Below, one piece after another: positions 15,890-53,077 of a stretch of DNA of 53,077 nt (position 1 is the stretch's first letter; each line of letters begins with the position of its first letter). The stretch lies in contig JAJZRD010000002.1 in assembly GCA_021845945.1 (NCBI GenBank), positions 1 through 53,077 on the forward strand. Direction: 5' to 3'. Position numbers and translations under genes: made by a program. This stretch comes from Chloroflexota bacterium. GTDB lineage: Bacteria; Chloroflexota; UBA6077. The notes beneath the pieces were generated by a model. That model was given only the letters and a program-made list of their open reading frames with translations, was not told the origin of the DNA and did not search any database.

Positions 15890-18238
15890 TCAGAGGGTGC
15901 GGTCCAACTCCTCCCGCACCGCTCGCGCAAGGGTCTGCAGCGTCACGGGTTTCGATAGGTAGGCACCAACCCCCTGCGCCTGAGCCTCGCGCACCCGGGC
16001 GGATTCCGCGAGACCCGACAGGAGGATTGCCCGCTGGCCGGGGTGGATCTCTCGTATGCGGCGGTAGGTTTCCGCCCCGTCGATGCCCGGCGGCATGACC
16101 ATGTCCAGGATCAGGAGATCCACCGGCCGCTCCCCGACCTGGGCGACCGCCTCTTCTCCGCCTGCCGCGACCGCCACCCGGTATCCCAGCTTCCCCAGCA
16201 GCCGGCTCACCAGCTCCCGCTCAAGAGGGTCGTCGTCCACCACCATGAGGGTCTCGGTTCCGCCCTTCACGGGATCGCCGGGGGTTTCATCTCCGGCTTC
16301 CCTGGAAATGGGCAGGTAGACGCTGAAGGTAGTGCCCTTGCCCACCTCGCTCTCCAGGTCCAGGCAACCCCGGTGGTCCTCCACTATCGCCTGAACCACG
16401 CTTAACCCCAAGCCCGAGCCGCGATGCCGGTCGGTTCGCTTGGTGGTGAAGAAGGCGTCGAAGATCCTATCCCGGATCTCGGCGGGAATACCGCAGCCGG
16501 TATCGCCGATAGTGAGGCGGACGTACTCGCCGGCCTCGATCCGGTTGTAGTGGCCGTAGGGTTGGTCCAGGTTGAGGTTCTCGGTCTTCAGGGTGACTAC
16601 CCCCACTTCTTGCATGGCCTCCCGAGCATTGGAAAGCAGGTTGGAGATCACCCTCATCAACTGGGCCGGGGCCCCGGCTACCGGCAGGAGATCGGGATCC
16701 AGATCCAGCTCCACCGCCAGTGTGTCGGGCCGATCCCCCATCTGCATCACAGCCTGCTGCACTAACCGGTTGAGGTCGGCGGGCTGTTGGGCGATGTGTC
16801 CCCGCCTGCCCAGGGCCAGCAGGTCCCGATTGATTTCGGCCATCCGGCCGGCGGCTTCCATCATAACGTCGCAGCACTGCGAGGCAGAGTGCCCTGGCGG
16901 CAGCTCCATCTTTATCAGCTCCGGATAGGCCAGTAGCGGAGATAGCAGGTTGTTGAAATCGTGTGCCACCTGCCCCGCTATTCGCCCGGCCGTTTCCAGC
17001 CGATGGGCCCGCAGAAGCCGCTCCTCCATCTGCTTCCGTTCGGTGACGTCCCTGGCTACGGTCACCACACCGACCACTTCTCCGGTCTCCGATCGAAGGG
17101 GCACTTTGCGCACGTGGCAGACCCTGGCATCGTCCTCCTCCTCGTAGTCCAGTACCGTGCCGGAACTCAGCACCCGGGAGTCCTCCTCCATTACCCGCGG
17201 GCCCTTCACCGGCCCATGCAGCTGCAGAGCCGTTTTCCCCTGGATCTCTTCCTTGGGCCGGCCCAGCCTCCGGGCCATCTCCGAGTTCACCAACAGGTAG
17301 CGCCCCTGAGCGTCCTTGACGTGGATGACGTCGTCCACCGCCTCGACCAGGGTCCGGTACAGTGTCTCGCACTGGCGCAGCGCCTCCTCGGCCGAATAGC
17401 CATGGATCTCTTCCGCGCCTCGGTTCCGGAAGAGCACCTTCCCGCCGCCGTCGGCGCAGATGATGGCATCCTTCGTCGTCTGCGCGACGGAGCGCAAGGT
17501 GATGCCCCGGTACACCAGGTAATAGGAGAGGACTTTGAAGAGATGGCCCGCAGAGTCCATTATCCCGTGGGGATCGGAGTCCAGGGTGAGACTCAACTCG
17601 GAAAGGATCGTGGCCACCATGGCACCGGTCAGCAGGAGATAGGCCGAGGGATCGACCTGGTGCCGCCGAGACCGTAGTCGCAGCAGGGCAACGAGTACCA
17701 GAAGGACGACGAGGTACTCGCCGGCAATCTCGAAGGGAGTCAGCCCCTTCCCCTCGACGAAACAGACCGGAAAGGCCTGGATCCACAGTATGCAGGCCAG
17801 CAGGCCTCCGGTAACGACGGCGTACAGCGAGAGGACGACAAGCCGCGGGAACTCCCGCCGGAGAAAGAAAGTGGCCAGCAGGAGGGATACCGCCTCGACG
17901 AACCGTCCGGCTATCCAGAACTGAGTGGGGACGTTCAGGTCGTAGGCCGGGTACTCGCCCATACCCTGGTAGGTCAGCAGGTGGGCGAAGTCGAGAAGAG
18001 CAACGAAGGGAAAAGTATTGCCCAGGAACAGCGAGAAGCCGTTGCTCGAGTCGCTGGGAGCCCTCGTCGCCAGAGCCCAAATGGAGACGGCGACTGCGAT
18101 GCCGAATCCTTCGACCGCGGCATGAAACAGAGGGTAACCATGGGTTGCCGCAATATGGAGGGCGAGGCCCGCGAGGAGGGCGGCCGCCAGCGCTGGGGTC
18201 CCCCAGACCCGGCAGCCGGGTTGCTCAACAGTTCTCAC
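15890..18238 (-). CDS. MASE3-PAS hybrid histidine kinase with C-terminal receiver
   Basis: ~782 aa from GTG 18238 (AGGGG upstream), which places the first membrane helix near the N-terminus; ATG 18418 would add a non-conserved 60 residues. Order: MASE3-type membrane sensor with ~7 helices (~15-240), including FPFVALLDFAHLLTYQGMG; a short PAS-like segment and a full PAS (~280-400, ending VARDVTERK); HisKA with H in AGQVAHDFNNLLSP; HATPase with intact DTGCGIP and GSGLGLSVV; receiver (~660-780) with DDDP, LILDMVMPPGIDG (phospho-Asp) and SKP. The DFNNLL class usually passes phosphate to its own receiver. No output regulator is adjacent. Confidence 0.88.
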   Translation of the reverse strand: MRTVEQPGCRVWGTPALAAALLAGLALHIAATHGYPLFHAAVEGFGIAVAVSIWALATRAPSDSSNGFSLFLGNTFPFVALLDFAHLLTYQGMGEYPAYDLNVPTQFWIAGRFVEAVSLLLATFFLRREFPRLVVLSLYAVVTGGLLACILWIQAFPVCFVEGKGLTPFEIAGEYLVVLLVLVALLRLRSRRHQVDPSAYLLLTGAMVATILSELSLTLDSDPHGIMDSAGHLFKVLSYYLVYRGITLRSVAQTTKDAIICADGGGKVLFRNRGAEEIHGYSAEEALRQCETLYRTLVEAVDDVIHVKDAQGRYLLVNSEMARRLGRPKEEIQGKTALQLHGPVKGPRVMEEDSRVLSSGTVLDYEEEDDARVCHVRKVPLRSETGEVVGVVTVARDVTERKQMEERLLRAHRLETAGRIAGQVAHDFNNLLSPLLAYPELIKMELPPGHSASQCCDVMMEAAGRMAEINRDLLALGRRGHIAQQPADLNRLVQQAVMQMGDRPDTLAVELDLDPDLLPVAGAPAQLMRVISNLLSNAREAMQEVGVVTLKTENLNLDQPYGHYNRIEAGEYVRLTIGDTGCGIPAEIRDRIFDAFFTTKRTDRHRGSGLGLSVVQAIVEDHRGCLDLESEVGKGTTFSVYLPISREAGDETPGDPVKGGTETLMVVDDDPLERELVSRLLGKLGYRVAVAAGGEEAVAQVGERPVDLLILDMVMPPGIDGAETYRRIREIHPGQRAILLSGLAESARVREAQAQGVGAYLSKPVTLQTLARAVREELDRTL

Positions 18239-18445
18239 AATTGCCCCTCGGTGATCTGTGGCGACCGCAAAGCACTCCCCCCTTCCCCTCAGGCCGTCCA
18301 ATAGTTGGGCTCCAACCTTCAGATCGGGTGCCGGCGATGGAGAAATGGCCATCAGGGGGAAAAGTTGGAGACCAGCGGCCTGGCTCTCAGGCTCGTCTTG
18401 GGAGATGGGCGGAAGCATACCAGTTGTGGAGAAGCGAACTGGCCA

Positions 18446-18480
18446 CGGAGGAGGCGGCAGGGGTGTTGCCGCCTCCTCCG
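18446..18480 (-). terminator. Terminator of the chemoreceptor gene
   Basis: A 14-bp perfect stem (CGGAGGAGGCGGCA and complement) with a 7-nt loop lies 50 nt past the minus-strand stop at 18532. It also separates that gene from the hybrid kinase. Confidence 0.7.
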
Positions 18481-18531
18481 CGCCGTAGCAGCAGCTCCTC
18501 CGACGGCCACGCGTCGTGAAGCCGCTGGGAA

Positions 18532-20613
18532 CTATCCCGCTGCCACGGACCTGAGCTTGGGCTGCTTGGGGGCCCCATCCGCCGCCCAATCGTCACTGCG
18601 GCGCTTCATGATCACCCGGGCCTCCTCCCCCAGCTTAAACTGAGCCACGACGGCTTGAAGCTCCTCGGCCATCTGCGCCAGCTCCTCGGCCTGGGCCACC
18701 ATCTCCTCCGCCTGGCCGTTCATCTCCTCGGTGGAGGCGCTCACCTCCTCCGCGGCGGCGCTGGTCTCCTGGCTGACCGCGGCGATCTTGTCGACAGACC
18801 CACCTACCACCTGGCCGGAGGCGGCCATCTCCTGGGTGGCGGCGGTGGACTCCTCCACGACCGCCGAGATGGAGTCCATGAGATCGACCACCTGCCGAGA
18901 GGCAGCCTCCATCTCCTGGACGGCAGAGGCGATGTGAGTCATCTGGCTCGCGGACTCCTGGACCGAGGAGAGGATGTTCTTGAGGGCATCACCGGCTTCC
19001 TCCGCCAGTCGAGCGCCCGCCTCCACCTCCTGCGTACCCTGAGCCATCGCCTCCACGGCTTCCTGAGTTCCCCCCTGGACCTGAGCGATCAGGTCGGCGA
19101 TCTCCTTGGTGGAGCGGCTGCTTCTCTCGGCCAGCTTCCTCACCTCGTCGGCGACGACCGCGAAGCCCCGGCCGTGCTCCCCCGCCCTCGCTGCCTCGAT
19201 GGCGGCGTTGAGGGCCAGCAGGTTGGTCTGCTCGGCGATGTCGTCGATGGCCTCCACGATGGAGCCGATCTGCTCCGAGTAGTTGCTCAACTCCCGGATC
19301 TTGGCTGCCGCGCTGGAGGTGGTGGCCTTGATCGCCGCCATGCCCTGGGCGGTCTTGTGGACCGATTCGGCCCCCGAAGAGGCAGCCCGGTGGGTTCCCT
19401 CAGCAGCCGTCGAGACCTCGTTGGAGGCACTGGCCACACGGGAGATGGAGCTACCCAACTGGGCGACGGACGCCGAGGCCTTTTCCACGGACTTGGCCTG
19501 ATCCTGGGCCCCCCTGGCGATCTGGTCGATGGCACGGGACAACTGGCCCATCGAGGAGGAGGTCTCCTGGGTGGCCGAGGCCTGCTCTTGGCTCCCGCGG
19601 GCGACCTGCTGGATGGTGGTGGCTATCTGCTGAGTGGCGGAACTCGTTTGCTCGGAGGCCGCCGACAACTGCTGGCTGGCCTCGGTGAGGGACTGGGCCG
19701 AGGCGGAGACGCTTCCCACCATCTCCCGCAGATTGGCGATCATCCGCTCGAAGGCGATGCCCAGGGCGTCCCTGTTGGATCGAGGGGCCACCTGCTGGGT
19801 AAGGTTGCCCCGGGACACTGCTTCAGCCACCTCGGCCATACCCCGGACGTACTGGATCATGTTGCGGAAGGAATCGGCCATCTGGCCGATCTCGTCACCA
19901 GACTTGACCTTGATCTCCTGCTCGACGTCCCCCTGAGCCAGCCCGTCGGCCGCCTTGGCCATGGCCCTGACCCCGTTGGCGATAGCTCCCGAGAGGAAGA
20001 AGGCGATCCCGAAGCCGACCAGAACCGCCAGAACCACCAGGCCCACCATCTGCACGCGGGCACCTTCGTACGTGGCGACGCCATGGCTCTCCGAATCGTC
20101 GGCCTCTTTCACGTTCATTTCGATCAGCTTGTCCAGGGCGTCCGCCACCGGCACCAGCTTATCCCGCGCTGCCCCTTGGAAGAGGGTCAGCGCCTCTTGG
20201 TCCTTGCCCTCTTTCTTGAGTTGGAGAACCGTGTCCCGGTCCGCCTTGTAGGCGGACCACGCCGTGTTGAACTTTGATACCATCTCCTTCTCGGCTGGGA
20301 GCAGCTTCGCCTTGCCGTACTTGTCCATGTTCTCCAGCATGGTCTTGTCGTAGGCGGCGATCTTGCTCTCCGCTTCGGCTATCTTTGCCTTGTCCTGGGC
20401 CACCAGGGCCTCCAGGATGTTGACCCTCATCCGGTGAAGGCTTTCGGCGGCGTTGTCCATCTCTTCGATGGGCAGCAGGCTGTCCTCGTACATGGAGGTC
20501 ATCAGCCCGCTAACCATCCCGAGGTTGGAAAGGCTGATCGCGCCGACTACGGCCATCAACACCAGGACGGCGGCGAAGCCCAACAGCATCTTGGCTCGCA
20601 CGGAAAACCTCAT
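18532..20613 (-). CDS. Methyl-accepting chemotaxis protein
   Basis: 693 aa. TM1 (~10-30, [19 protein letters not shown]), a four-helix-bundle (4HB_MCP-type) extracytoplasmic sensor (~31-185), TM2 (~188-210), HAMP plus a second HAMP-like region (~210-310), then a long coiled-coil signalling domain (~320-675). The conserved hairpin tip reads [19 protein letters not shown] followed by [18 protein letters not shown], which binds CheA/CheW. No CheR-tethering pentapeptide is at the C-terminus, and no che genes are in the window. The ligand is unknown. Its start region faces the orphan regulator at 20920 across an AT-rich repeat. Confidence 0.95.
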
Positions 20614-40504: not shown

Positions 40505-42712
40505 ATGGCAGGTGGCGTCATGTTCTCCGAGTTGCACGTGCTCTCGGGGGAACGCCAGGACAGTTCTGACCTGGTTGGGGTCGCCACCGCTCCTGTCCTC
40601 TCCTTCTTCAAGCGACGCCGCGGACAGCTCTTCACCATCGTGGAGCCTAGCCTGACCGGCGCCGAGGCCGCCTGCCGGCGGCTGATAGAGGTGATTGAAG
40701 ACGAGTATTTCCGCGATCCCTCCCGCACGGTCACCGGCGGCCTCCGACAGGCCCTGGTGGCGGCCAACGACGTCCTGCGCAGCGAGAACTCCAGGGCCAC
40801 GCCGGACCGCCAACTGCGGGCCGGCCTCTCCTGCGCCGTGATCCGGGAGTCGGACGTTTACGTCGCCCAGGTGGCGCCCGCCAACGCCTTCGTCCTCCAC
40901 GACGGCATGGTAAAGCGGGTCTTCAGCACCTACAGCGTGATCCCGGACGTCAGCAGCAACGGAACCAACCGGGCCTCGGATTCCCTGGGCGCGGGCCTGG
41001 ATCCTCACGTCAACTTCGCCTACAGCCCGCTGGAGGAGGGCGACCTGGTGGTGCTCGCCTCCGGCGCCTACTGGAAGCTGGTCCCCGACCGATACATCCT
41101 GGACGCGGCCAAGCACGTGGATCCGGACATGGCGGCTTCAGAGCTATACGGCTGCTATCTGGCCCACGCCCGGCGCCCCACCACCTCCCTGATCGTCATC
41201 CGAATGTCGGAGCTGCCGGGCCGGCATCGCAGCAGCGAAAAGCAGGAGGAGAGCCGCCCGGCCCTGGTGGAGATGTCGGAGCTCTCCACGGTGGCGGAAC
41301 GGCCCCCGGCCAGGACTCCCTCTGGAAACGGCCGGACGGCGGCAAAGGTAGCTCGGGAGCGAGAGAAGCCTGCTGCGCCGCCCCGCCCATCTCTTTGGGA
41401 GCGTCTGAGGCCGAAGCGCAAGAAGGCGGCGTCCCTCTACCCGCCCGGCCCTCCCCTGGAGGCCGTAGGCCGGACCTCGGTTCGGTTGAGGAGGCAGGGG
41501 CCGCAGAACTGGACCGATCGGCAGGGTCCCCCCTCCTGGCTGGTCAAGCTGATCCTGATGGGAGTGCTGGCGGCCATCCTCGTGCTGGCAGGCACGGCGG
41601 GGATCAACAGCTTCCGATCCTGGCAGTTGGGCGATCCGGTGGCGCTGGCCGGGCAGGCCCAGGAGAAGCGAACCGAGGCCGCTTCCGCCACCGATCCTGC
41701 TGCTGCCAGGACCCTCCTGGCCCAGTCCTACGACCTGTTCGACCGGTCGCTGCGGGCCAAGGAAGATGACTCGGTTCGCACCCAGGCGACCTCAGTGCTG
41801 GCCGACATGGACAAGATCGACAAGATCGTCAGGGTCACCCAGGTGAACACCCTGGTGGATTACGCTCCAATCGTCAACGACAAGGGCGACCCCACCCAGA
41901 TGGTGGTGGACGGCAACAGCCTCTACGTCCTGGACGAGGGGTTGGATCGGCTGTACCAGTACAACCTGACGGCCGACGGCAACGGCGTGGAGGAGCCCGG
42001 CAAGCACCAGGTGTTGGTGAAGCGAGGGGACAAGCTGGACGGGGGCACCATCGGCGACCTGCTGGCCCTGACCTGGATGCCCGCGGGGCAGTTGAGAAGC
42101 TCTCCGGCCCTGTTCGGGCTGGAGAGCGGTCGCTCCCTCGTGGCGTACGATCCCAAGTCGGGGCTCTCCCGCATCGAGGTCTCGGAGAGCCAGAAGTGGG
42201 GCAGCATCCAGGCCATCAGCGGCTTCGCCGGTGGCCTCTACCTGCTGGATACGAAGCTGAAGGGGGTCTTCTACTACCCCCCCACCAAGAACGGTTACGA
42301 AAGCGAGCCCTACACCATCATCGACTCCCGCGCCAAGGTGGACCTCTCCAAGGCGGTGGATATCGCCCTGGACGGCAACCTGTACGTTCTCGAGGCCGCC
42401 GGTACCGTCAAGCGATTCAATCGGGAGGGCCGGCCCCTGGACTTCGCGGGTGAGCTGCCCGACGGTTCGATCAAGGGACCCAAGGCGCTGTTCGCCAGCG
42501 CCAATACCCGCTCCCTCTACCTGCTGGACACGGCCGGCGAGAGGATCATCCAGTTCTCGCCCGAGGGCAAGCTGCAGAGGCAGTTCAAGGCCGACGGCAA
42601 GAACGTCTCCTTCAAGGATCTGCGGGATCTCTTCGTGGACGAGGGGGCCCGAAAGATATATCTACTGGCACACAAATCGCTGTTCAGCTTCGCCCTACCG
42701 CCGATGCAGTAG
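40505..42712 (+). CDS. PP2C-like domain / TM / beta-propeller membrane protein
   Basis: 735 aa, ATG with GGGAGG upstream. N-terminal ~1-235 resembles a PPM/PP2C phosphatase fold (LRAGLSCAVIRESDVYVAQVAPANAFVLHDGMVKRV; EEGDLVVLASGAYWKL), but the catalytic SDG is SGA and no N-terminal RxxNED motif is seen, so it is probably catalytically dead. A basic/proline linker (~236-340), one membrane helix (~345-365), then a ~300-residue domain with repeated blades (NSLYVLDEGLDRLYQYN, GGLYLLDTKLKGVFYY, GNLYVLEAAGTVKRFNREG, RSLYLLDTAGERIIQFSPEG) forming an NHL-like propeller outside the membrane. Function unknown; a signalling scaffold is possible. Confidence 0.75.
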   Translation: MAGGVMFSELHVLSGERQDSSDLVGVATAPVLSFFKRRRGQLFTIVEPSLTGAEAACRRLIEVIEDEYFRDPSRTVTGGLRQALVAANDVLRSENSRATPDRQLRAGLSCAVIRESDVYVAQVAPANAFVLHDGMVKRVFSTYSVIPDVSSNGTNRASDSLGAGLDPHVNFAYSPLEEGDLVVLASGAYWKLVPDRYILDAAKHVDPDMAASELYGCYLAHARRPTTSLIVIRMSELPGRHRSSEKQEESRPALVEMSELSTVAERPPARTPSGNGRTAAKVAREREKPAAPPRPSLWERLRPKRKKAASLYPPGPPLEAVGRTSVRLRRQGPQNWTDRQGPPSWLVKLILMGVLAAILVLAGTAGINSFRSWQLGDPVALAGQAQEKRTEAASATDPAAARTLLAQSYDLFDRSLRAKEDDSVRTQATSVLADMDKIDKIVRVTQVNTLVDYAPIVNDKGDPTQMVVDGNSLYVLDEGLDRLYQYNLTADGNGVEEPGKHQVLVKRGDKLDGGTIGDLLALTWMPAGQLRSSPALFGLESGRSLVAYDPKSGLSRIEVSESQKWGSIQAISGFAGGLYLLDTKLKGVFYYPPTKNGYESEPYTIIDSRAKVDLSKAVDIALDGNLYVLEAAGTVKRFNREGRPLDFAGELPDGSIKGPKALFASANTRSLYLLDTAGERIIQFSPEGKLQRQFKADGKNVSFKDLRDLFVDEGARKIYLLAHKSLFSFALPPMQ

Positions 42713-46197: not shown

Positions 46198-46250
46198 TCT
46201 CTTGTCGCGGATCGACCCCCGGGCGATCCCGAACCGTTTTCCCCACTTTG

Positions 46251-46279
46251 CAGGGGCCCCGACGTCGTCGGGGCCCCTG
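46251..46279 (+). terminator. groESL terminator
   Basis: CAGGGGCCCCGACG and its complement form a 14-bp stem with a minimal loop, 54 nt after groEL. No T tract. Confidence 0.75.
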
Positions 46280-46298
46280 GTGCCGATCAGCTCACAGA

Positions 46299-46500
46299 TC
46301 ACCGGTAAAGCGCTACCAGCAGCCGGCCTTCGGCATCGGTGAAGAGGTAGACTTCCCCTCTTGCTCCAGCCTCCGACCACCCAACTCCAATCGTATCGGT
46401 CGGCCGGCGGGGCCCCCCGGCAAGCTGAGATCGGCCCGAGCGGCGCCCAGATCGCCCCTGGCTGCCGGTCTGATCACCTTGCCAGAGGATGCAATAGTGG
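46299..46500 (-). pseudogene. Possible decayed small gene, frameshifted
   Basis: Two overlapping minus-strand frames look coding in succession: one reads ARADLSLPGGPAGRPIRLEL..., the other ends RGEVYLFTDAEGRLLVALYR just before the stop at 46299. They join at a GGGG run near 46360. A one-base shift would fuse them into one small protein. The kinase promoter (46479) lies at its 5' side. This may be chance. Confidence 0.2.
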
Positions 46501-46507
46501 ATACACT
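46479..46507 (+). promoter_or_regulatory. Promoter of the Cys-cluster kinase operon
   Basis: TTGCCA (46479-46484), 17-nt spacer, TACACT (46502-46507). Transcription from ~46514 rules out the TTG at 46507 as the start codon. Confidence 0.6.
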
Positions 46508-46590
46508 TGTGGGAGATTGACATAGCTGATCCAGGCACGAGATCCACGGGCGGAGTGCTGGCTGCTCCAAATGCACGTCCTGAGGTGGCG

Positions 46591-48741
46591 TTGAGTCCGT
46601 TTCTGGGCCTTCACCATAACCTGCTGCTCATCTTCCTCACCTACGGCCTCGCCTTCTTCACCATGGGCGTAGCGGTGGTACTGGAATGGAAGAGCGACTC
46701 AGATCTTCCACTGACTCGAGCCCTGCCGGCTCTGGCCGCCTTTGCCTTCCTCCACGGCCTCATGGAGTGGACCCACATTCTGCTGATCGCTCCCACGGGG
46801 GAGTTGATCCATGGCAACGATCCTCCAGTGGAGATAGCACAACTGCTGCTTTTGAGCGGCTCCTACTTCTTTCTCCTCTGGTTCGGCATCGACCTGGTCA
46901 CCAGCCTGAACCCGCACCGGATCCGTTGGCACTGGGCCGCCCTCCTGCTCTTTGGCCTCTGGGTGGGCACCGCTGCCCTTGCCGCATCGGCTGGCCTACC
47001 GGCGGCGGAATGGGTCGCCAGCGCCAACAGCCTTGCCCGCTACCTGCTGGGTCTCCCTGGAGGCATAGTGGTGGTCTGGGGGTTGCAGCGGCACCGGAAG
47101 ATCTTCCGCGAGCTCAAGATGCCCCAAACGGCCAGGAACTGCTTCTGGGCCGGGGTTGGCTTCGCCCTGTACGCCCTCGCCACGGGGCTGGTGACCCCCC
47201 GAGCTCCCCTGCTGCCGGCCAGCTTGCTGAACTACGGCTCCTTCCAGGCCGCGACGGGCCTGCCGGTGCAGATCTTTCGCACCCTCCTGGCGCTGGTCCT
47301 GGCCTACTTCATAGTGCGGATACTGCGAGCCTACGACGAGGAGCGGGACCGCCGGCTGGAGAACGCCACCCGGGAGCGACACCTGGCGCAGCAGCAACTG
47401 CTGGAGGCACATCGACAGGCCGAGGAGCAGCTGCGGGTGTGGAACGAGACCCTCGAGGCGAGGGTGTTGGACCGGACCTCTCAACTGGAGCGGAAGAAGC
47501 GGGAGGCCGAGGCGCTCTATCAGATCGGCACCGAGATCTCGGCCTTCTTGGACCTACAAACCATTCTCAGTTCGGTGGTGGAGAAAGCCCGACGGTTTCT
47601 GGCAGCCGACCTGGCCGCCGTCGCGCTCCTGGACCCGGAGCACAACACCATCTCGATGCAATCCGTCAGTGGGACGAGAACGGAAGAGTTCAGCCGCCTG
47701 CGGCTGAGGCCCGGTCAAGGTCTAGCCGGCCAGGTAGTGGAGACGGGAGTAGCACTGGCCATCGACGACTACCTGATGAATCCTGAGTTTCAACATGTAC
47801 CAGAGGTGGACACCGTGGTCTCCGCAGAGGAGCTTCGAGCCCACCTGGTGGTACCGCTAAAGGCAGGAGGCAGGATCCACGGGGCACTCTATGTGGCTAA
47901 CCGGGGCGACCGCCGCTTCGAGGAGGACAGCTTGTGGATGCTGGAGCAGTTGGCGGTGTGTACTTCTATTGCCATCGAGAACTGCTGCCTCTACGACAAA
48001 GCCCAAGAGGTCGCCGTGCTGCAGGAACGAGAGAGAATCGGCAGGGAGATCCACGACGGCCTGGCCCAGGCCCTGGGCTGTCTGTCGATGCTGGCTCGCG
48101 CCGCTCAAAGCCGCCTGGAGCGGGCGAACGGCGAGACAACGGCCCGAGCCCGCTCGGACTTGCTGGAGATGGAGGAGCTCGCCCAGGAATCCTACCAGGA
48201 TGCCCGCGAGGCGATCCTGGGGCTCCGGGTAAGCGCTTACGGCGGCCCGGGCCTGGTGGGCGCCCTGCGGGAGTACGTCCAACGCTTCAGCGAGCAGAGT
48301 GGCCTTGATACCCGCGTGGTGATCGGCGAGGGCTGGCCCTCCAACCTGCCGACCTCCGTGGAAATCCACGTCGTTCGCATTGTCCAAGAGGCGCTCTCCA
48401 ACGTCCGCAAGCACGCCGCGGCTCAGCACGCCTGGGTCGAGTTGAAGTCGGACGGCAGCCGTGCCGAGATCGCGGTGCAGGACGACGGCCGAGGCTTCGA
48501 CGCCGAGAGGTGTATAGAATGCAACGGCTGCCACTTCGACGAGGCAAAGTGCGGCAGTTGCGGTGGCTGCCACTTTGGTCTGCAGACCATGCGGGAGAGG
48601 GCCAGGATGATAGGCGGCGAACTGACGGTGCACAGCGCACCGGGCCAGGGGGCCCGGATGGAGCTGCGGCTGCCGCTGGAGGACAGCTGGAGAACAGGCG
48701 GCCGCCAGCGGGTCTCCCGCCTGGAGGGAGGCAGCCGATGA
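46591..48741 (+). CDS. NarX/DegS-type sensor kinase with Cys-rich insertion in the ATP lid
   Basis: 716 aa from TTG 46591 (GAGGTGG upstream; GTG 46555 or 46585 alternative). Seven or so membrane helices (~8-265), coiled coil (~270-320), GAF (~330-480), HisKA_3 with ERIGREIHDGLAQALG, HATPase with IVQEALSNVRKHA and DDGRGFD. Between DDGRGFD and FGLQTMRERA the ATP lid contains CIECNGCHF and CGSCGGCHF: six Cys at ~641, 644, 647, 654, 657, 660, each triad followed by His. This suggests an Fe-S or zinc site, so redox or metal control of ATP binding is possible. The cognate NarL-type regulator follows 19 nt later. Confidence 0.9.
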   Translation: MSPFLGLHHNLLLIFLTYGLAFFTMGVAVVLEWKSDSDLPLTRALPALAAFAFLHGLMEWTHILLIAPTGELIHGNDPPVEIAQLLLLSGSYFFLLWFGIDLVTSLNPHRIRWHWAALLLFGLWVGTAALAASAGLPAAEWVASANSLARYLLGLPGGIVVVWGLQRHRKIFRELKMPQTARNCFWAGVGFALYALATGLVTPRAPLLPASLLNYGSFQAATGLPVQIFRTLLALVLAYFIVRILRAYDEERDRRLENATRERHLAQQQLLEAHRQAEEQLRVWNETLEARVLDRTSQLERKKREAEALYQIGTEISAFLDLQTILSSVVEKARRFLAADLAAVALLDPEHNTISMQSVSGTRTEEFSRLRLRPGQGLAGQVVETGVALAIDDYLMNPEFQHVPEVDTVVSAEELRAHLVVPLKAGGRIHGALYVANRGDRRFEEDSLWMLEQLAVCTSIAIENCCLYDKAQEVAVLQERERIGREIHDGLAQALGCLSMLARAAQSRLERANGETTARARSDLLEMEELAQESYQDAREAILGLRVSAYGGPGLVGALREYVQRFSEQSGLDTRVVIGEGWPSNLPTSVEIHVVRIVQEALSNVRKHAAAQHAWVELKSDGSRAEIAVQDDGRGFDAERCIECNGCHFDEAKCGSCGGCHFGLQTMRERARMIGGELTVHSAPGQGARMELRLPLEDSWRTGGRQRVSRLEGGSR
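48511..48573 (+). other. Duplicated CxxCxxCHF motif inside the kinase ATP lid
   Basis: DNA encodes two copies of C-x-x-C-x-G-C-H-F separated by five residues (DEAKC spacing), an internal duplication between the G1 and G2 boxes of the kinase. Related kinases usually have a few residues here. Confidence 0.85.
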
Positions 48742-48760
48742 GGGAGCGCGGGAGAAGAGA

Positions 48761-49438
48761 ATGGCCATGAAAGCCCGTCCCCTGCGGGTGCTGCTGGTGG
48801 ACGACCAAGTGCTGTTCCGCAAGGGGTTACGCAGTATTCTCTCCGATTGGCTGGAGGTGCAGGTAGTGGGTGAAGCCTCCGACGGGTCGGAGGCTATCGC
48901 CCAGGCGGCTGCTCTGCGCCCGGACATCATTCTGATGGACGTTAACATGCCCACCATGAACGGGATTGAAGCCGCCAGACGCCTCCGGCGCCGGTCGCCT
49001 GAGGTGAGGCTGATCATGCTAACTATCTCCGAGCAAGACGAGCACCTCTTCGACGCCATCAAGGCGGGTGCCGACGGCTACCTGCTGAAGGATCTTAGGC
49101 CCGAGGTGCTGCGCGAGATGCTGTTGGCGGTAACCCGGGGGGAGGCGCCTCTCTCGCCGCTGATGGCCAAGAAGATCCTGGCGGAGTTTTCCCGACAGGC
49201 GCCGCTGGTGCCGGCTCCAAAGCCGACCGAGGATCTCACCTCCCGGGAGAGGGAGGTGCTGAGACTGGTGGCCGAGGGGGCAGACAACCGGACGATCGCC
49301 GATCGCCTTTGTCTGGCACCAGGAACGGCCAAGCGCCACATTCACAACATACTGTCGAAGCTCCAGGCCCGCAGCCGCAGCGAGGCGGTGGCCTTCGCTC
49401 GACACCACGGGATTCTCTCCCAGGAACCGACCCAATGA
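48761..49438 (+). CDS. NarL/FixJ-family response regulator
   Basis: 225 aa. Receiver (1-~130): LLVDDQVLFRKGL, phospho-Asp DIILMDVNMPTMNGIEA, TISEQ, KAGADGYLLKD with Lys. LuxR-type HTH (~155-220): LTSREREVLRLVAEGADNRTIADRLCLAPGTAKRHIHNILSKL. Partner of the upstream HisKA_3 kinase by position and class. Its TGA overlaps the ATG of the next gene (ATGA), so the glycan ligase/TPR protein is made in step with it. ATG 48767 is an alternative start. Confidence 0.94.
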   Translation: MAMKARPLRVLLVDDQVLFRKGLRSILSDWLEVQVVGEASDGSEAIAQAAALRPDIILMDVNMPTMNGIEAARRLRRRSPEVRLIMLTISEQDEHLFDAIKAGADGYLLKDLRPEVLREMLLAVTRGEAPLSPLMAKKILAEFSRQAPLVPAPKPTEDLTSREREVLRLVAEGADNRTIADRLCLAPGTAKRHIHNILSKLQARSRSEAVAFARHHGILSQEPTQ

Positions 49439-51582
49439 CGGCCCTACGACTGGCCCGTATCGCTACCCGAGCGGCGGAAGCCTCTCTGTTCGGAACCCTG
49501 TTCCTACTTCCCCTGACCTTCTGGCCCCTGAGCTTCCAGACGTTCGTGGCCCCCAAGCTGCTGGTCCTGAGGGGATTGACGGTACTGGCGCTGGTATCCT
49601 GGGGTCTGGCCTCCCTGCTTCGGGGGCGGCTTCGCCTTTACCGTAACCCGCTCTTCCTGCCCCTGTCCGCCTACCTGGCCGTGAGCCTGCTGGCCACCCT
49701 CTTCTCGGTGGCGCCGCGCAACAGTTGGTTCGGCCAGAGCTACCGGGGCGACGGCCTGGTGACCCTGGCGACCTACGCTACCCTGTACTTCCTGGCGGTG
49801 CAACTGCTCCGGACTCGCCTTCACCTGCGGAGAGCCATCGCCTGGACCCTGGCCGGCGCGGTGCCTGTGGCGATCATGGGCATCTTGCAGTCATACAATT
49901 GGGACCCCAGCTTCTCGAACAGCCCCTGGCTCGGGACACGGGCATCCTCCACTCTGGGCAACCCCGACTTCCTGGGGGCCTATCTGGCGCTGGCCTGGCC
50001 CCTGCCGGTGGTGTGGCTTCTCTCGGGCGGGCCGCGCTGGCAACGGTTCCTGGCAGCCGTGGTCCTGGCGCTGCTCGCTTCGGCCCTGGCTCTTTCGCAC
50101 ACCAGGGGAGCCTGGATAGGCTCGGCCGCGGGTGCCCTGGTGCTGCTCTTCTTCTTGAGGAGCCGGTTGAAGGCCCTGACCCCCTGGGTGGCCCTGGCTG
50201 TGCTGCTGGGGACGCTGCTGGTGGCCCCGGTGGACTTGGGGTGGCGCTCGCCCCTGCAGGGGCTGGTCCCCTCTTCCGGGCCACCGCCGGCGCCGCATCA
50301 GGACCAAACCTTGGCCAAGGCCCTGGCTTCCCTGGCCGCCCCGACCACCGACCGAAGCGCCCTGGCTCGCCTGCTGCTCTGGCAAGCGGCGCTGCCCCTG
50401 ATAGAGGACTCCCCGCTCCTGGGCAGTGGACCCAACAGCTACGTGGCCGTCGCCACCCGATACGTCAGTCCGGCCTGGGTCACGCTGGCCGGGAACGAGG
50501 GCCTCTTCCCCGACAAGCCTCACAATCAGCTGTTGGAGGTAGCCGTGAGCAGCGGGCTGCCGGGGCTGGCGGCCTACCTCTGGCTGCTGGTTGCCCTGGC
50601 GCGCCTGGCCTGGAGCTGGCTCCGCCGTCGCCTCCACCACCCGGCCTATCCTCTCATGGCGGCGTTGACCTCGGCCTGGGTGGGCTACCTGGTGCAGGAC
50701 ATCTTCCTCTTCGACGTCTTGGATGCCGGGGCCCTTTTCTGGCTCTTCACGGCGCTGATTTCCACCGGCGGGAGGGTGCCGGCGCGACCCCGACGGATCA
50801 ACCTGGCGTTGCCCGGGTCGATGCGCTCCGTGGCCGCCGGTTCCCTGCTGCTGGTCGGAGCTCTGGCCCTGGTGCTGGCGTGGCGCCCCTTCGGCGCCGA
50901 CCTCTACCTTCGGGATGCCCTGCTGGCCTCGAAGGACGCCCACCATCTGTCCACCGCCATGCCGCTCTTCGAGAAATCGCTGGAGATGGATGGAGGCGAC
51001 GAACTGGTACTGCTACAGTTCGCGGCCGCTCGTACCATGGAGGCCCGGTTCAACCCGCAGAAGCGGCTGGAATCCTCGCGACAGGCCATCTCGCTACTCA
51101 ACGAGGCGATCGAGCTGAACCCCAGGCTGGCCCTGCTGTACCTGCACCGGGGGAGGGCCTGGGATCTGCAGCCCGGGCAGGAGCAGGCGGCGCTGTCCGA
51201 TTACCGACGAGCGGCGGAGCTGTACCCCCACTACCCCGAGGCCAACATGGCGCTGGGCGACCTGCTGCACCGCCTGGGTCGACCGCAGGAGGCGGTGCTG
51301 GCGGGGGTGAGACTGCTGCAGGTGCGTCCGAAGGAACCGGACGTCTACTTCAATCTGGGTATCGACTACGCCGCCCTGCGCAACTGGGGCCAGGCCATAG
51401 CCGTGTGGCAAGAGGGGGAACGGCTGGCTCCCACGGACGCCGGTTTCCCCTTCCGCCTAGGCACCGCCTTCGAGGCCCAGGGCGACCTGCAGCGCGCCCG
51501 AGAGGCGTACCGGCAGGCCCTCGCCCTGGATCCCGCGCACGCGGATACTCAGAAGGCATTGGCTCGCCTAGGCCCACGGTAA
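49435..51582 (+). CDS. O-antigen ligase/Wzy-like membrane protein with C-terminal TPRs
   Basis: 715 aa from ATG 49435, overlapping the regulator's stop. About 11-12 membrane helices (~20-475), including the Wzy_C-type large extracytoplasmic loop with PLLGSGPNSYVAVATRY and DKPHNQLLEVAVSSGLPGLAAYLWLL (the conserved H-N pair of O-antigen ligases/polymerases). A further helix (~463-485), then ~220 residues of TPR repeats (ALLYLHRGRAWDLQPGQEQAALSDYRRAAELYPHYPEANMALGDLL; PDVYFNLGIDYAALRNW; AREAYRQALALDPAHADTQKAL) outside the membrane. Probably joins or polymerises surface or glycoprotein glycan. Chloroflexota lack LPS, so an O-antigen role is not implied. Confidence 0.85.
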   Translation: MTALRLARIATRAAEASLFGTLFLLPLTFWPLSFQTFVAPKLLVLRGLTVLALVSWGLASLLRGRLRLYRNPLFLPLSAYLAVSLLATLFSVAPRNSWFGQSYRGDGLVTLATYATLYFLAVQLLRTRLHLRRAIAWTLAGAVPVAIMGILQSYNWDPSFSNSPWLGTRASSTLGNPDFLGAYLALAWPLPVVWLLSGGPRWQRFLAAVVLALLASALALSHTRGAWIGSAAGALVLLFFLRSRLKALTPWVALAVLLGTLLVAPVDLGWRSPLQGLVPSSGPPPAPHQDQTLAKALASLAAPTTDRSALARLLLWQAALPLIEDSPLLGSGPNSYVAVATRYVSPAWVTLAGNEGLFPDKPHNQLLEVAVSSGLPGLAAYLWLLVALARLAWSWLRRRLHHPAYPLMAALTSAWVGYLVQDIFLFDVLDAGALFWLFTALISTGGRVPARPRRINLALPGSMRSVAAGSLLLVGALALVLAWRPFGADLYLRDALLASKDAHHLSTAMPLFEKSLEMDGGDELVLLQFAAARTMEARFNPQKRLESSRQAISLLNEAIELNPRLALLYLHRGRAWDLQPGQEQAALSDYRRAAELYPHYPEANMALGDLLHRLGRPQEAVLAGVRLLQVRPKEPDVYFNLGIDYAALRNWGQAIAVWQEGERLAPTDAGFPFRLGTAFEAQGDLQRAREAYRQALALDPAHADTQKALARLGPR

Positions 51583-51677
51583 CCCGGCCACCGAGCAGCC
51601 GATCGACTCTGCACTCCCCATGTTGTAGCTCCCGAAAACCTCCGCCGACACCCGACTTCGTGCTGCCGCTCACGAAG

Positions 51678-51727
51678 ATGTACCCGGGTGATACGCCTCG
51701 GCAGCGGAAAATGTACCCCAGGTACAT
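51678..51727. promoter_or_regulatory. Tandem operator-like palindromes before the receiver/cytochrome genes
   Basis: ATGTACC-CCA-GGTACAT (51711-51727) is a perfect 7-bp inverted repeat. ATGTACCCGGGTGAT (51678-51692) is a weaker copy beginning exactly 33 bp upstream (three helical turns). They look like paired dimer sites for one regulator. No clear -35/-10 was found nearby. 51583-51831 has no gene. Confidence 0.5.
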
Positions 51728-51831
51728 CGACACCCCTCTGGCTCCTCTTTAGCATTGCCTCGGATAGCCAAAGGATACCTGGGCTCGTCGTGCCCGCGGG
51801 GTCATCACCAGGGAAACGGGTGGAGACCTGA

Positions 51832-52200
51832 TTGGTGCTCGTCCTGTACCACCACGAGCTGTTCGCCAACGGGATCGTGGGTCTGCTGAGGGAGAAGGGC
51901 TTCTCCCCCATCGGCCTGGACGCCCGCTCCAAGGACGCACTGGAGCGGGTGCAGGCGTTGCGACCTCGGCTGATCCTGGTGGAGGACAACGACCCCGACA
52001 GCGTCTTCGCCACCAAGCTGAAGGAGATCCTGAAGCGGAACCCCGAGGTGGGGGTGATCCGCATCAACGTCGAGAGCAACCTGCTCAGCATCTACTCGGC
52101 CAGACAGGTGATGGCGACCGGTCCGGAGGACCTGTTCGACGCCATCGAACGGCTGGCCAACTGCTCGGTGCTGAACGAACGACAACAACAGCCAGTCTAG
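51832..52200 (+). CDS. Degenerate receiver-domain protein (122 aa)
   Basis: Single domain with the beta-alpha order of a response-regulator receiver: VLVLYHHELFANGIVGLLREKGF (beta1-alpha1), RPRLILVEDNDPDS (beta3), NPEVGVIRINVES (beta4), DLFDAIERL (alpha5). The acidic pair is absent (LYHHE), the phospho-Asp position reads Glu in LILVEDND, and the conserved Lys is missing, so phosphorylation is unlikely and the fold may act constitutively. TTG start with GGAG 6 nt upstream. The cytochrome gene starts 29 nt later, so the pair is probably an operon. Fold call moderate. Confidence 0.65.
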   Translation: MVLVLYHHELFANGIVGLLREKGFSPIGLDARSKDALERVQALRPRLILVEDNDPDSVFATKLKEILKRNPEVGVIRINVESNLLSIYSARQVMATGPEDLFDAIERLANCSVLNERQQQPV

Positions 52201-52229
52201 CTTCACCAGCTGGCAGAGGGGAGCCACTG

Positions 52230-53077
52230 TTGGACCAGCAGCAAGAGCTTGGCGTAGCGTTTCGCGAGGGGGGCGAGGCGGAACGGTTTCCTGCCCTCCG
52301 AGGGCGCCCTGTCTTGGTCGGCCTTTCGGTCCTGTTCCTCCTGGCCCTGTCCGCAGCGATCCTGCTGGCGGGCTGCACGGCCCAGGAATCCAAGCCCTCC
52401 AAGCCCGGTAGCTCGGCCGCACCGCCGGCTGCCGATGCCCAGGCGCAGAAACCAAGCAACGCTCCCTCCCAGCCGCAGCCCACGGCAGCGACCGGCGTGC
52501 AGCCGGTCGCTGCCCCCGGCGGGTCAACTGCCGGGGGGACTGGAATAGGCCCCGACATCCCTCACTCGGCTCAAGGGCGTTCCGACTGCCTGGCGTGCCA
52601 CGCCCGGACGGTCATGTGGCCTGTGCCGGAAAGCCACGAGGGCAGCCAGAACGACAGCTGCCAGTCCTGCCACCGGCAGATTCCTGGCGGGGCACCGAAG
52701 ATCGCCCACGCGATCGAGGGACGAACTGCCTGCGCCTCCTGCCACGCCGAGAAGTCGATCGCTCCCCTGCCTCCCAGCCACAGCAAGCGCACGGAAAAGA
52801 CCTGCGGCATCTGCCACACCCAGACGGTTACGCCCACGACGATAGCCCACACCCTGGACGGCAAGACCGCCTGCGCCTCCTGCCACGCCGAGGACAAGCT
52901 GGTCGCCCTCCCAGCCTCCCACAAGGGGCGCACCGAGCAGCAGTGCGTCGTCTGCCACACCCAGACGGTTACGCCCACGACGATAGCCCACACCCTGGAC
53001 GGCAAGACCGCCTGCGCCTCCTGCCACGCCGAGGACAAGCTGGTCGCCCTCCCAGCCTCCCACAAGGGGCGCACCGA
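52230..53077 (+). CDS. Multihaem c-type cytochrome lipoprotein (3' truncated by window end)
   Basis: Open from TTG 52230 (GAGGGGAG upstream) to the last base; 282 codons seen. Membrane segment at ~32-48 ending in lipobox LAGC, so it is anchored outside the cytoplasmic membrane. A Ser/Pro/Ala linker (~52-105) precedes haem motifs CLACH, CQSCH, CASCH, CGICH, CASCH, CVVCH, CASCH: seven CxxCH in view, two per 47-residue unit from the third on, with extra His (IAHTLDG, PASHKGR) as probable distal ligands. The family carries extracytoplasmic electrons. The last two units are tandem DNA repeats. Co-transcribed with the degenerate receiver protein. Confidence 0.92.
   Translation, partial: MDQQQELGVAFREGGEAERFPALRGRPVLVGLSVLFLLALSAAILLAGCTAQESKPSKPGSSAAPPAADAQAQKPSNAPSQPQPTAATGVQPVAAPGGSTAGGTGIGPDIPHSAQGRSDCLACHARTVMWPVPESHEGSQNDSCQSCHRQIPGGAPKIAHAIEGRTACASCHAEKSIAPLPPSHSKRTEKTCGICHTQTVTPTTIAHTLDGKTACASCHAEDKLVALPASHKGRTEQQCVVCHTQTVTPTTIAHTLDGKTACASCHAEDKLVALPASHKGRT
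52812..53077 (+). repeat. 141-bp tandem repeat inside the cytochrome gene
   Basis: Bases 52812-52936 and 52953-53077 (125 nt each) are identical; the period is 141 nt, or 47 codons, keeping frame. The unit includes TVTPTTIAHTLDGKTACASC. A diverged older unit precedes it. More copies may lie beyond the window. Confidence 0.95.

Follow-up and report, generated by a model that had tools for sequence, protein, structure and literature searches.

Histidine kinases are normally controlled at a distance, their core responding to sensor domains that are separate from it. The locus described here raises the question of whether the flap of the catalytic domain (the ATP lid) could itself receive a signal. 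In the window (the whole stretch of 53,077 nucleotides of DNA that was analysed), a sensor histidine kinase is encoded on the + strand at 46591..48741, and its lid carries a Cys-rich insert (AERCIECNGCHFDEAKCGSCGGCH, 48502..48573, + strand) flanked by the G1 box (DDGRGF) on one side and the G2 segment (FGLQTMRERA) on the other. Because this insert, which by its sequence probably binds metal, sits in the flap, the flap itself may be a redox or metal sensor.

Domain organization of the kinase

The kinase gene encodes 716 residues from a TTG start codon, placed as in the homologues P0002 and P0003, and its open frame reaches upstream to 46507 (744 residues). The N-terminal part is a membrane sensor region (46597..47340, + strand) with seven predicted transmembrane helices, based on the AlphaFold helices and on positive-inside counts, both of which also put the C-terminus of this region in the cytoplasm; the end of helix 7, which sets the boundary of the region, was placed by hand. 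The remaining domains, all on the + strand, are a GAF domain (residues 349-491, 47551..47979; Pfam GAF_2, E 1.4e-18), a HisKA_3 dimerisation/phosphoacceptor domain (residues 507-574, 48025..48228; PF07730, E 6.5e-13, 49.5 bits against a cut-off of 24) and a HATPase_c catalytic (CA) domain (residues 619-725, 48361..48681; PF02518, E 2.7e-18, 66.9 bits against a cut-off of 26.4). No PAS domain was found in the Pfam scan at E <= 0.001, and a fold search with the whole kinase model matched mainly GAF domains.

Both the kinase and its regulator are intact. The phospho-acceptor, as read from the sequence, is His516 (codon 48052-48054); H516 and D517 are invariant across 13 aligned family members, N632, D659, G661 and G663 (of the N and G1 boxes, which are intact) are invariant in the family alignments, and the CA fold is intact as well. 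The cognate response regulator, of the NarL/LuxR type according to Pfam, is encoded at 48761..49438 (+ strand), and the kinase-regulator pair is kept in all three family loci inspected (L190, L191 and L192). The DHp and CA domains of the kinase, and likewise the regulator, belong with the NarX/NarQ-type kinases and their NarL-type regulators, although the scores against the NCBIfam models stay below the cut-offs (NarQ, 105.9 against 553 bits; NarX, 95.4 against 578 bits; NarL, 193.1 against 250 bits), and the window kinase differs from NarX and NarQ in its seven-helix membrane sensor with a GAF domain and in its Cys-rich lid.

A Cys-rich insert in the ATP lid

The positions of the HATPase_c and HisKA_3 matches place the insert after the G1 box and before the G2 box, that is, in the ATP lid, where a preliminary description of this DNA had also put it. 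The translated frame across the lid reads DDGRGFDAERCIECNGCHFDEAKCGSCGGCHFGLQTMRERA, with six Cys codons that start at 48511, 48520, 48529, 48550, 48559 and 48568 and a last His codon at 48571-48573. The resulting pattern, CxxCxxC-x6-CxxCxxCHFG, occupies 48511-48573, exactly the interval given in that description, from the first Cys codon to the end of the last His codon. The kinase holds 11 Cys in total, those that fall in its HATPase domain are all in the lid and, at the family Cys frequency of 0.0063, the binomial probability of six Cys in 26 residues is 1.3e-8, which makes the module a real feature, far beyond chance. In two alignments, the window lid is about 13 residues longer than those of its relatives (the Cys-free ones being 12-14 residues shorter), and the lids of the more distant P0009 and P0019 are shorter still.

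The preliminary description had seen here a double CxxCxxCH module. Its six Cys stand, but two identical repeat units do not and were rejected, given that the DNA of the two lid units is identical at just 16/27 bases and that relatives retain differing subsets of the Cys (P0005 shares only CxxC-x9-CxxC). The second CHF is not simply a repeat, H-F-G being the ordinary start of the G2 segment (SHFGL, EHFGL and GHYGL in Cys-free relatives). AlphaFold models the lid with low confidence (pLDDT about 57-70), as a six-residue helix and a three-residue turn in the full model and with neither in the model of the CA domain only.

Recurrence and phylogeny of the lid Cys

The homologues were collected with the whole kinase (18 proteins at E <= 1e-40) and with P0005 (120 of 277 matches listed), and the family set drawn from the matches listed comprises 135 proteins, including the window kinase (P0001). 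Lids were parsed in 129 of these (128 of them distinct), and the six remaining proteins have no Cys cluster in the lid region of their C-terminal sequence. Lid length across the family runs from 8 to 27 residues and, among the matches listed, the 129 parsed lids hold no Cys (120 lids), one (1), two (3), four (2) or six (3), with P0001 and P0002 as near copies among the three six-Cys lids; two or more Cys are present in 7 of the 128 distinct lids (among the matches listed, window included).

P0002 is 99% identical to the window kinase and has the same lid (it represents a cluster of 6 sequences and comes from another contig, of 2,648 bases); it was also the sole match, among 70 candidates, of a protein search with only the lid. 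The closest homologue beyond this copy among the matches listed, P0003 (64% identical), has no lid Cys. The Cys lid recurs in independent homologues, with the same six Cys in P0022 (53% identical; lid CGQCDGCRMGEECLDCSGCHFG, one residue less between the two halves) and four in each of P0005 and P0023, the former aligning without gaps to C1, C2, C4 and C5 of the window and the latter retaining C2, C4, C5 and C6. In P0021 the lid is short and carries just CxxCHFG, and P0024 and P0025 have long lids with two Cys only, one near either end. Between P0001 and P0022, which are separated by a tree path of about one substitution per site, the Cys are kept at 6/6 positions, against 8/20 for the other lid positions (Fisher p 0.017).

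In a tree of 66 of the 128 catalytic regions, built with the lid removed (identifiers up to P0067 and every Cys-lid protein), the seven proteins whose lids hold at least two Cys all fall in one 11-member clade (support 100/100), and P0031, with its single lid Cys, lies outside it. Four of the 11 clade members, P0003 and three others, have no lid Cys, and absence of the Cys pairs from close homologues is what the preliminary description had named as counting against its reading; among independent homologues, the module recurs whole in P0022 and in part in P0005 and P0023. In a fuller tree that resolves the clade, made from 15 rows and 682 columns without the lid, P0001 pairs with P0003, which has no lid Cys (100/99), and P0021 with P0022 (99/98), and monophyly of the Cys lids within the clade is rejected (p-AU 2.45e-7). 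The Cys lids being non-monophyletic, either a Cys lid present in an ancestor was repeatedly lost or eroded, or there were multiple gains. Based on these sequences, the module looks as if selection maintains it in some lines while others can do without it, since four clade members are Cys-free and the Cys lids do not make up one sub-clade.

Distribution in other genomes

The membrane domain is present in 50 of 400 sampled Chloroflexota genomes (with at most six candidates scored in most genomes), and the 25 lids parsed from 30 membrane-domain loci hold at most one Cys each, the loci that yielded no parsed lid being L124, L125, L128, L139 and L147. A CA profile built from four Cys-lid CA domains was run on 400 Chloroflexota genomes, with at most 11 candidates scored per genome; the top score was 104 bits, and the 28 lids parsed from 30 of its loci also hold at most one Cys each (L242 and L254 gave no lid). 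Across all loci collected, none of the 102 distinct lids parsed by regular expression has two or more Cys. A pattern scan of the genome contigs for GxGF with two CxxC pairs, which says little, gave at least 120 stretches, 120 of which, checked in frame, left five frames and none that reads as a HATPase lid, and a search of the contigs with the whole kinase gave 33 stretches matched by pattern and no relatives. Because the surveyed Chloroflexota lids hold at most one Cys, the Cys lid looks rare and restricted to one clade within the genomes and proteins searched.

Genomic neighbourhood and haem linkage

The downstream neighbours named in the preliminary description were all recovered, namely the LuxR-type regulator, a Wzy_C/TPR glycan ligase (identified with Pfam) and a multihaem c-type cytochrome (52230..53077, + strand), which has 7 CxxCH in its available part and runs off the window. 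This cytochrome is a possible functional partner of the kinase. Of 23 family neighbourhoods (the best 23 of 76 match places, each spanning 4.8-16.8 kb), 8 contain a frame with three or more CxxCH, while none of 19 control stretches taken from these genomes does (Fisher p 0.005). The difference is supportive and not strong, since 14 of the 19 controls come from the start of a contig and L200 and L203, both among the eight multihaem-bearing loci, look closely related. Additionally, a single CxxCH starts within the first 150 residues of 34 of the 135 family proteins (among the matches listed). In 12 aligned proteins this motif lies either within the loop joining TM2 and TM3 or next to the one joining TM4 and TM5, both of which are outside by positive-inside counts, and its carriers look like a family of seven-helix sensor kinases that bear haem c.

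With the N-terminal CxxCH in 34/135 proteins and multihaem genes near 8/23 loci, the wider kinase family looks like a haem-linked sensor family, pointing to respiration. This applies to the family at large, for which the haem-linked setting suggested earlier holds; in the Cys-lid clade, where the N-terminal CxxCH occurs in 0 of 11 members (P0026 being without its N-terminus in the alignment), the setting comes down to the window's cytochrome.

The carriers of the N-terminal CxxCH (at residues about 78-150) are P0004, P0006, P0033, P0035, part of P0037-P0063, P0065, P0066 and P0074. Directly past the regulator of a related kinase pair, at L192:1368-2777 (- strand), there is a cytochrome gene with 11 CxxCH.

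A putative metal site and its alternatives

From the lid sequences we infer metal binding, the identity of the metal and an effect on kinase activity. The lid thiolates most likely bind a metal, in a site that would be redox- or metal-responsive and would tune the kinase; jointly with the assignment of the protein to the NarX-like (HisKA_3) sensor kinases, bound to the membrane of a Chloroflexota-type bacterium, this is the explanation that we favour, with a confidence about midway between doubt and certainty. CxxC pairs are frequent zinc ligands. For this reason, and because sets of exactly four Cys recur (in P0005 and P0023) and fit the need of a tetrahedral site, Zn is favoured as the first choice and an Fe-S cluster as the second.

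The P0022 lid resembles zf-CXXC (PF02008; E 1.6e-4, 22.1 bits, with 10.9 bits for the window lid and a cut-off of 26.5) and that of the window resembles Fer4_6 (E 0.002, 18.5 bits against a cut-off of 25), sub-threshold likenesses that do not decide between Zn and Fe-S. The lids of P0022, P0005 and P0023 had no match to Fer4 models, no Pfam model matched those of P0005 and P0023, and in the PDB the lid sequence had weak matches only (E 0.47 and worse), mostly to nuclear-receptor zinc fingers. The likeness to zf-CXXC lies in the pattern CxxCxxC-x4/5-CxxCxxC, best seen with the P0022 lid, but it stays below the gathering cut-off and covers only profile positions 6-28 of 48. The zf-CXXC finger binds two zinc ions, and its two distal Cys are presumably without counterpart in the lid; the resemblance is most likely convergence.

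In the proposed mechanism, the six thiolates, or the core of four that some relatives have, would bind metal in a site that links the two halves of the lid, whose dynamics would differ with and without metal. Ordering or loosening of the lid would tune ATP binding and lid closure, then autophosphorylation and ultimately the adjacent NarL-type regulator, the switch being the loss or oxidation of the metal site. The lid would in this way add an intracellular redox or metal input on top of the 7TM and GAF sensing. A more specific version, which we regard as rather doubtful, is that a redox cofactor has moved, from the outside c-haem motif in the membrane sensor of the relatives to a Cys-ligated metal or Fe-S site in the lid of the haem-motif-free clade, where redox would gate ATP handling directly, with no relay from a sensor domain.

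The lid Cys could also work as a metal-free thiol switch, in which disulfides, or reaction with NO or oxidants, lock or free the lid. Two-Cys lids do exist in the clade (CxxC in P0021; one Cys near either end in P0024 and P0025) and, in the available parts of two reports (PMC8199190, PMC8534201), a redox disulfide in the CA domain of SrrB affects autophosphorylation; nevertheless, six Cys in CxxCxxC spacing and the four-Cys sets of P0005 and P0023 exceed the need of a disulfide, and the SrrB-like pair in NarQ lies, in the portion of the literature consulted, opposite the catalytic site and outside the lid, so we consider this switch fairly unlikely. We think it unlikely, too, that the insert is a structural zinc knuckle that stabilises the elongated lid with no sensing role: the long lids of P0024 and P0025 have no inner Cys, therefore length alone needs no metal, and the haem-linked family setting favours a redox input, even though P0022 has the zf-CXXC-like pattern, the insert is absent in relatives whose kinase motifs look intact and lid insertions of another kind are known elsewhere (RH376, in the text of PMC10359499 consulted).

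Drift of a low-constraint loop, with lids that vary freely and Cys that have no function, would agree with the wide range of family lid lengths (8 to 27 residues) and with the several clade lines without lid Cys, but it is improbable in view of the Cys-biased conservation between P0001 and P0022 (6/6 against 8/20), of the binomial probability of 1.3e-8 and of the 0/102 distinct lids with two or more Cys from the collected loci. The two CxxCH strings in the lid, together with the membrane-part CxxCH of 34/135 family proteins (among the matches listed), might further suggest attachment of c-type haem. Such attachment takes place outside the membrane, and both the AlphaFold model and the positive-inside counts make the lid cytoplasmic, in agreement with the earlier placing of the CxxCH-bearing domain; moreover, the His is an ordinary lid residue, with Arg in its place in P0023, and in P0005 it is Arg, not Cys, that precedes the His. 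Haem c in the lid is hardly conceivable with the lid in the cytoplasm, and it was dropped on topology.

Comparison with known systems

The metal-site reading brings the window kinase close to NreB, AirS and Hik2/CSK, which likewise have clustered Cys in kinases of a respiratory or redox context. In the available part of PMC4601167, the Fe-S Cys of NreB lie in an N-terminal PAS domain and those of AirS in the N-terminal region, and in that of PMC13421787 the Hik2 cluster lies in a GAF domain. The window kinase has no group of four Cys in an N-terminal PAS domain as in NreB, its Cys group being in the lid, and the contrast in placement with NreB and AirS drawn in the preliminary description is upheld to the extent of that source (PMC4601167). 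SrrB shares the presence of redox-type Cys inside the catalytic domain (PMC8199190 and PMC8534201, in the sections available), but it has one Cys pair, outside the lid, and the like pair in NarQ is away from the active site (again in the sections available); an SrrB-type pair in the CA domain outside the lid is absent from the window kinase.

Among lid insertions, RH376 has a large one, but its tested role is dimerisation, and the text consulted (PMC10359499) describes no Cys or metal in it. In a comparison with the catalytic domains of VraS and DesK (4gt8, 3ehh), the VraS lid is short and Cys-free in the alignment. MORC2, a eukaryotic GHKL ATPase, combines an ATP lid with a zinc finger, but its zinc is held in a separate CW domain (PMC5811534, available in part). 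Lid insertions and redox Cys or clusters in kinases are thus each known, and a Cys or metal site in the lid is apparently undescribed within the open-access literature, where our searches turned up no account of a metal site or Cys cluster in a histidine-kinase ATP lid (most subscription journals lie outside this scope). If the metal-site reading is true, a cofactor in the lid would give direct control over the moving part of the catalytic cycle, as a compact redox or metal input, and the relatives found in nature, whose lids hold 6, 4, 2 or 0 Cys, would be a ready-made test series.

Other features of the locus

The window's GroEL shares 92% identity with its counterpart in genome G092 (which belongs to the 29 genomes of the class of G022). 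Of ten genomes from other phyla, nine give best matches of 62-66% and the tenth one of 70%, over a piece of 394 residues. G092 matches the gene at 40505-42712, tsaD, groES and groEL in the same order; kinase, regulator, ligase and cytochrome are absent from the 10 kb downstream of its groEL, and the membrane domain has no match in this genome. Because of this absence despite the matched upstream genes, the kinase block is variable even among near relatives. The block missing at the corresponding place in G092 is 46200-53077, downstream of groEL.

The cytochrome at 52230-53077 contains near-identical tandem units (TVTPTTIAHTLDGKTACASCHAEDKLVALPASHKGRT). The interval between ligase and cytochrome encodes a 122-aa protein (51832-52200) with no Pfam match, which by eye resembles a degenerate receiver domain. 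Elsewhere in the window, a hybrid histidine kinase with MASE3, PAS and receiver domains (15890-18589) adjoins a methyl-accepting chemotaxis protein.
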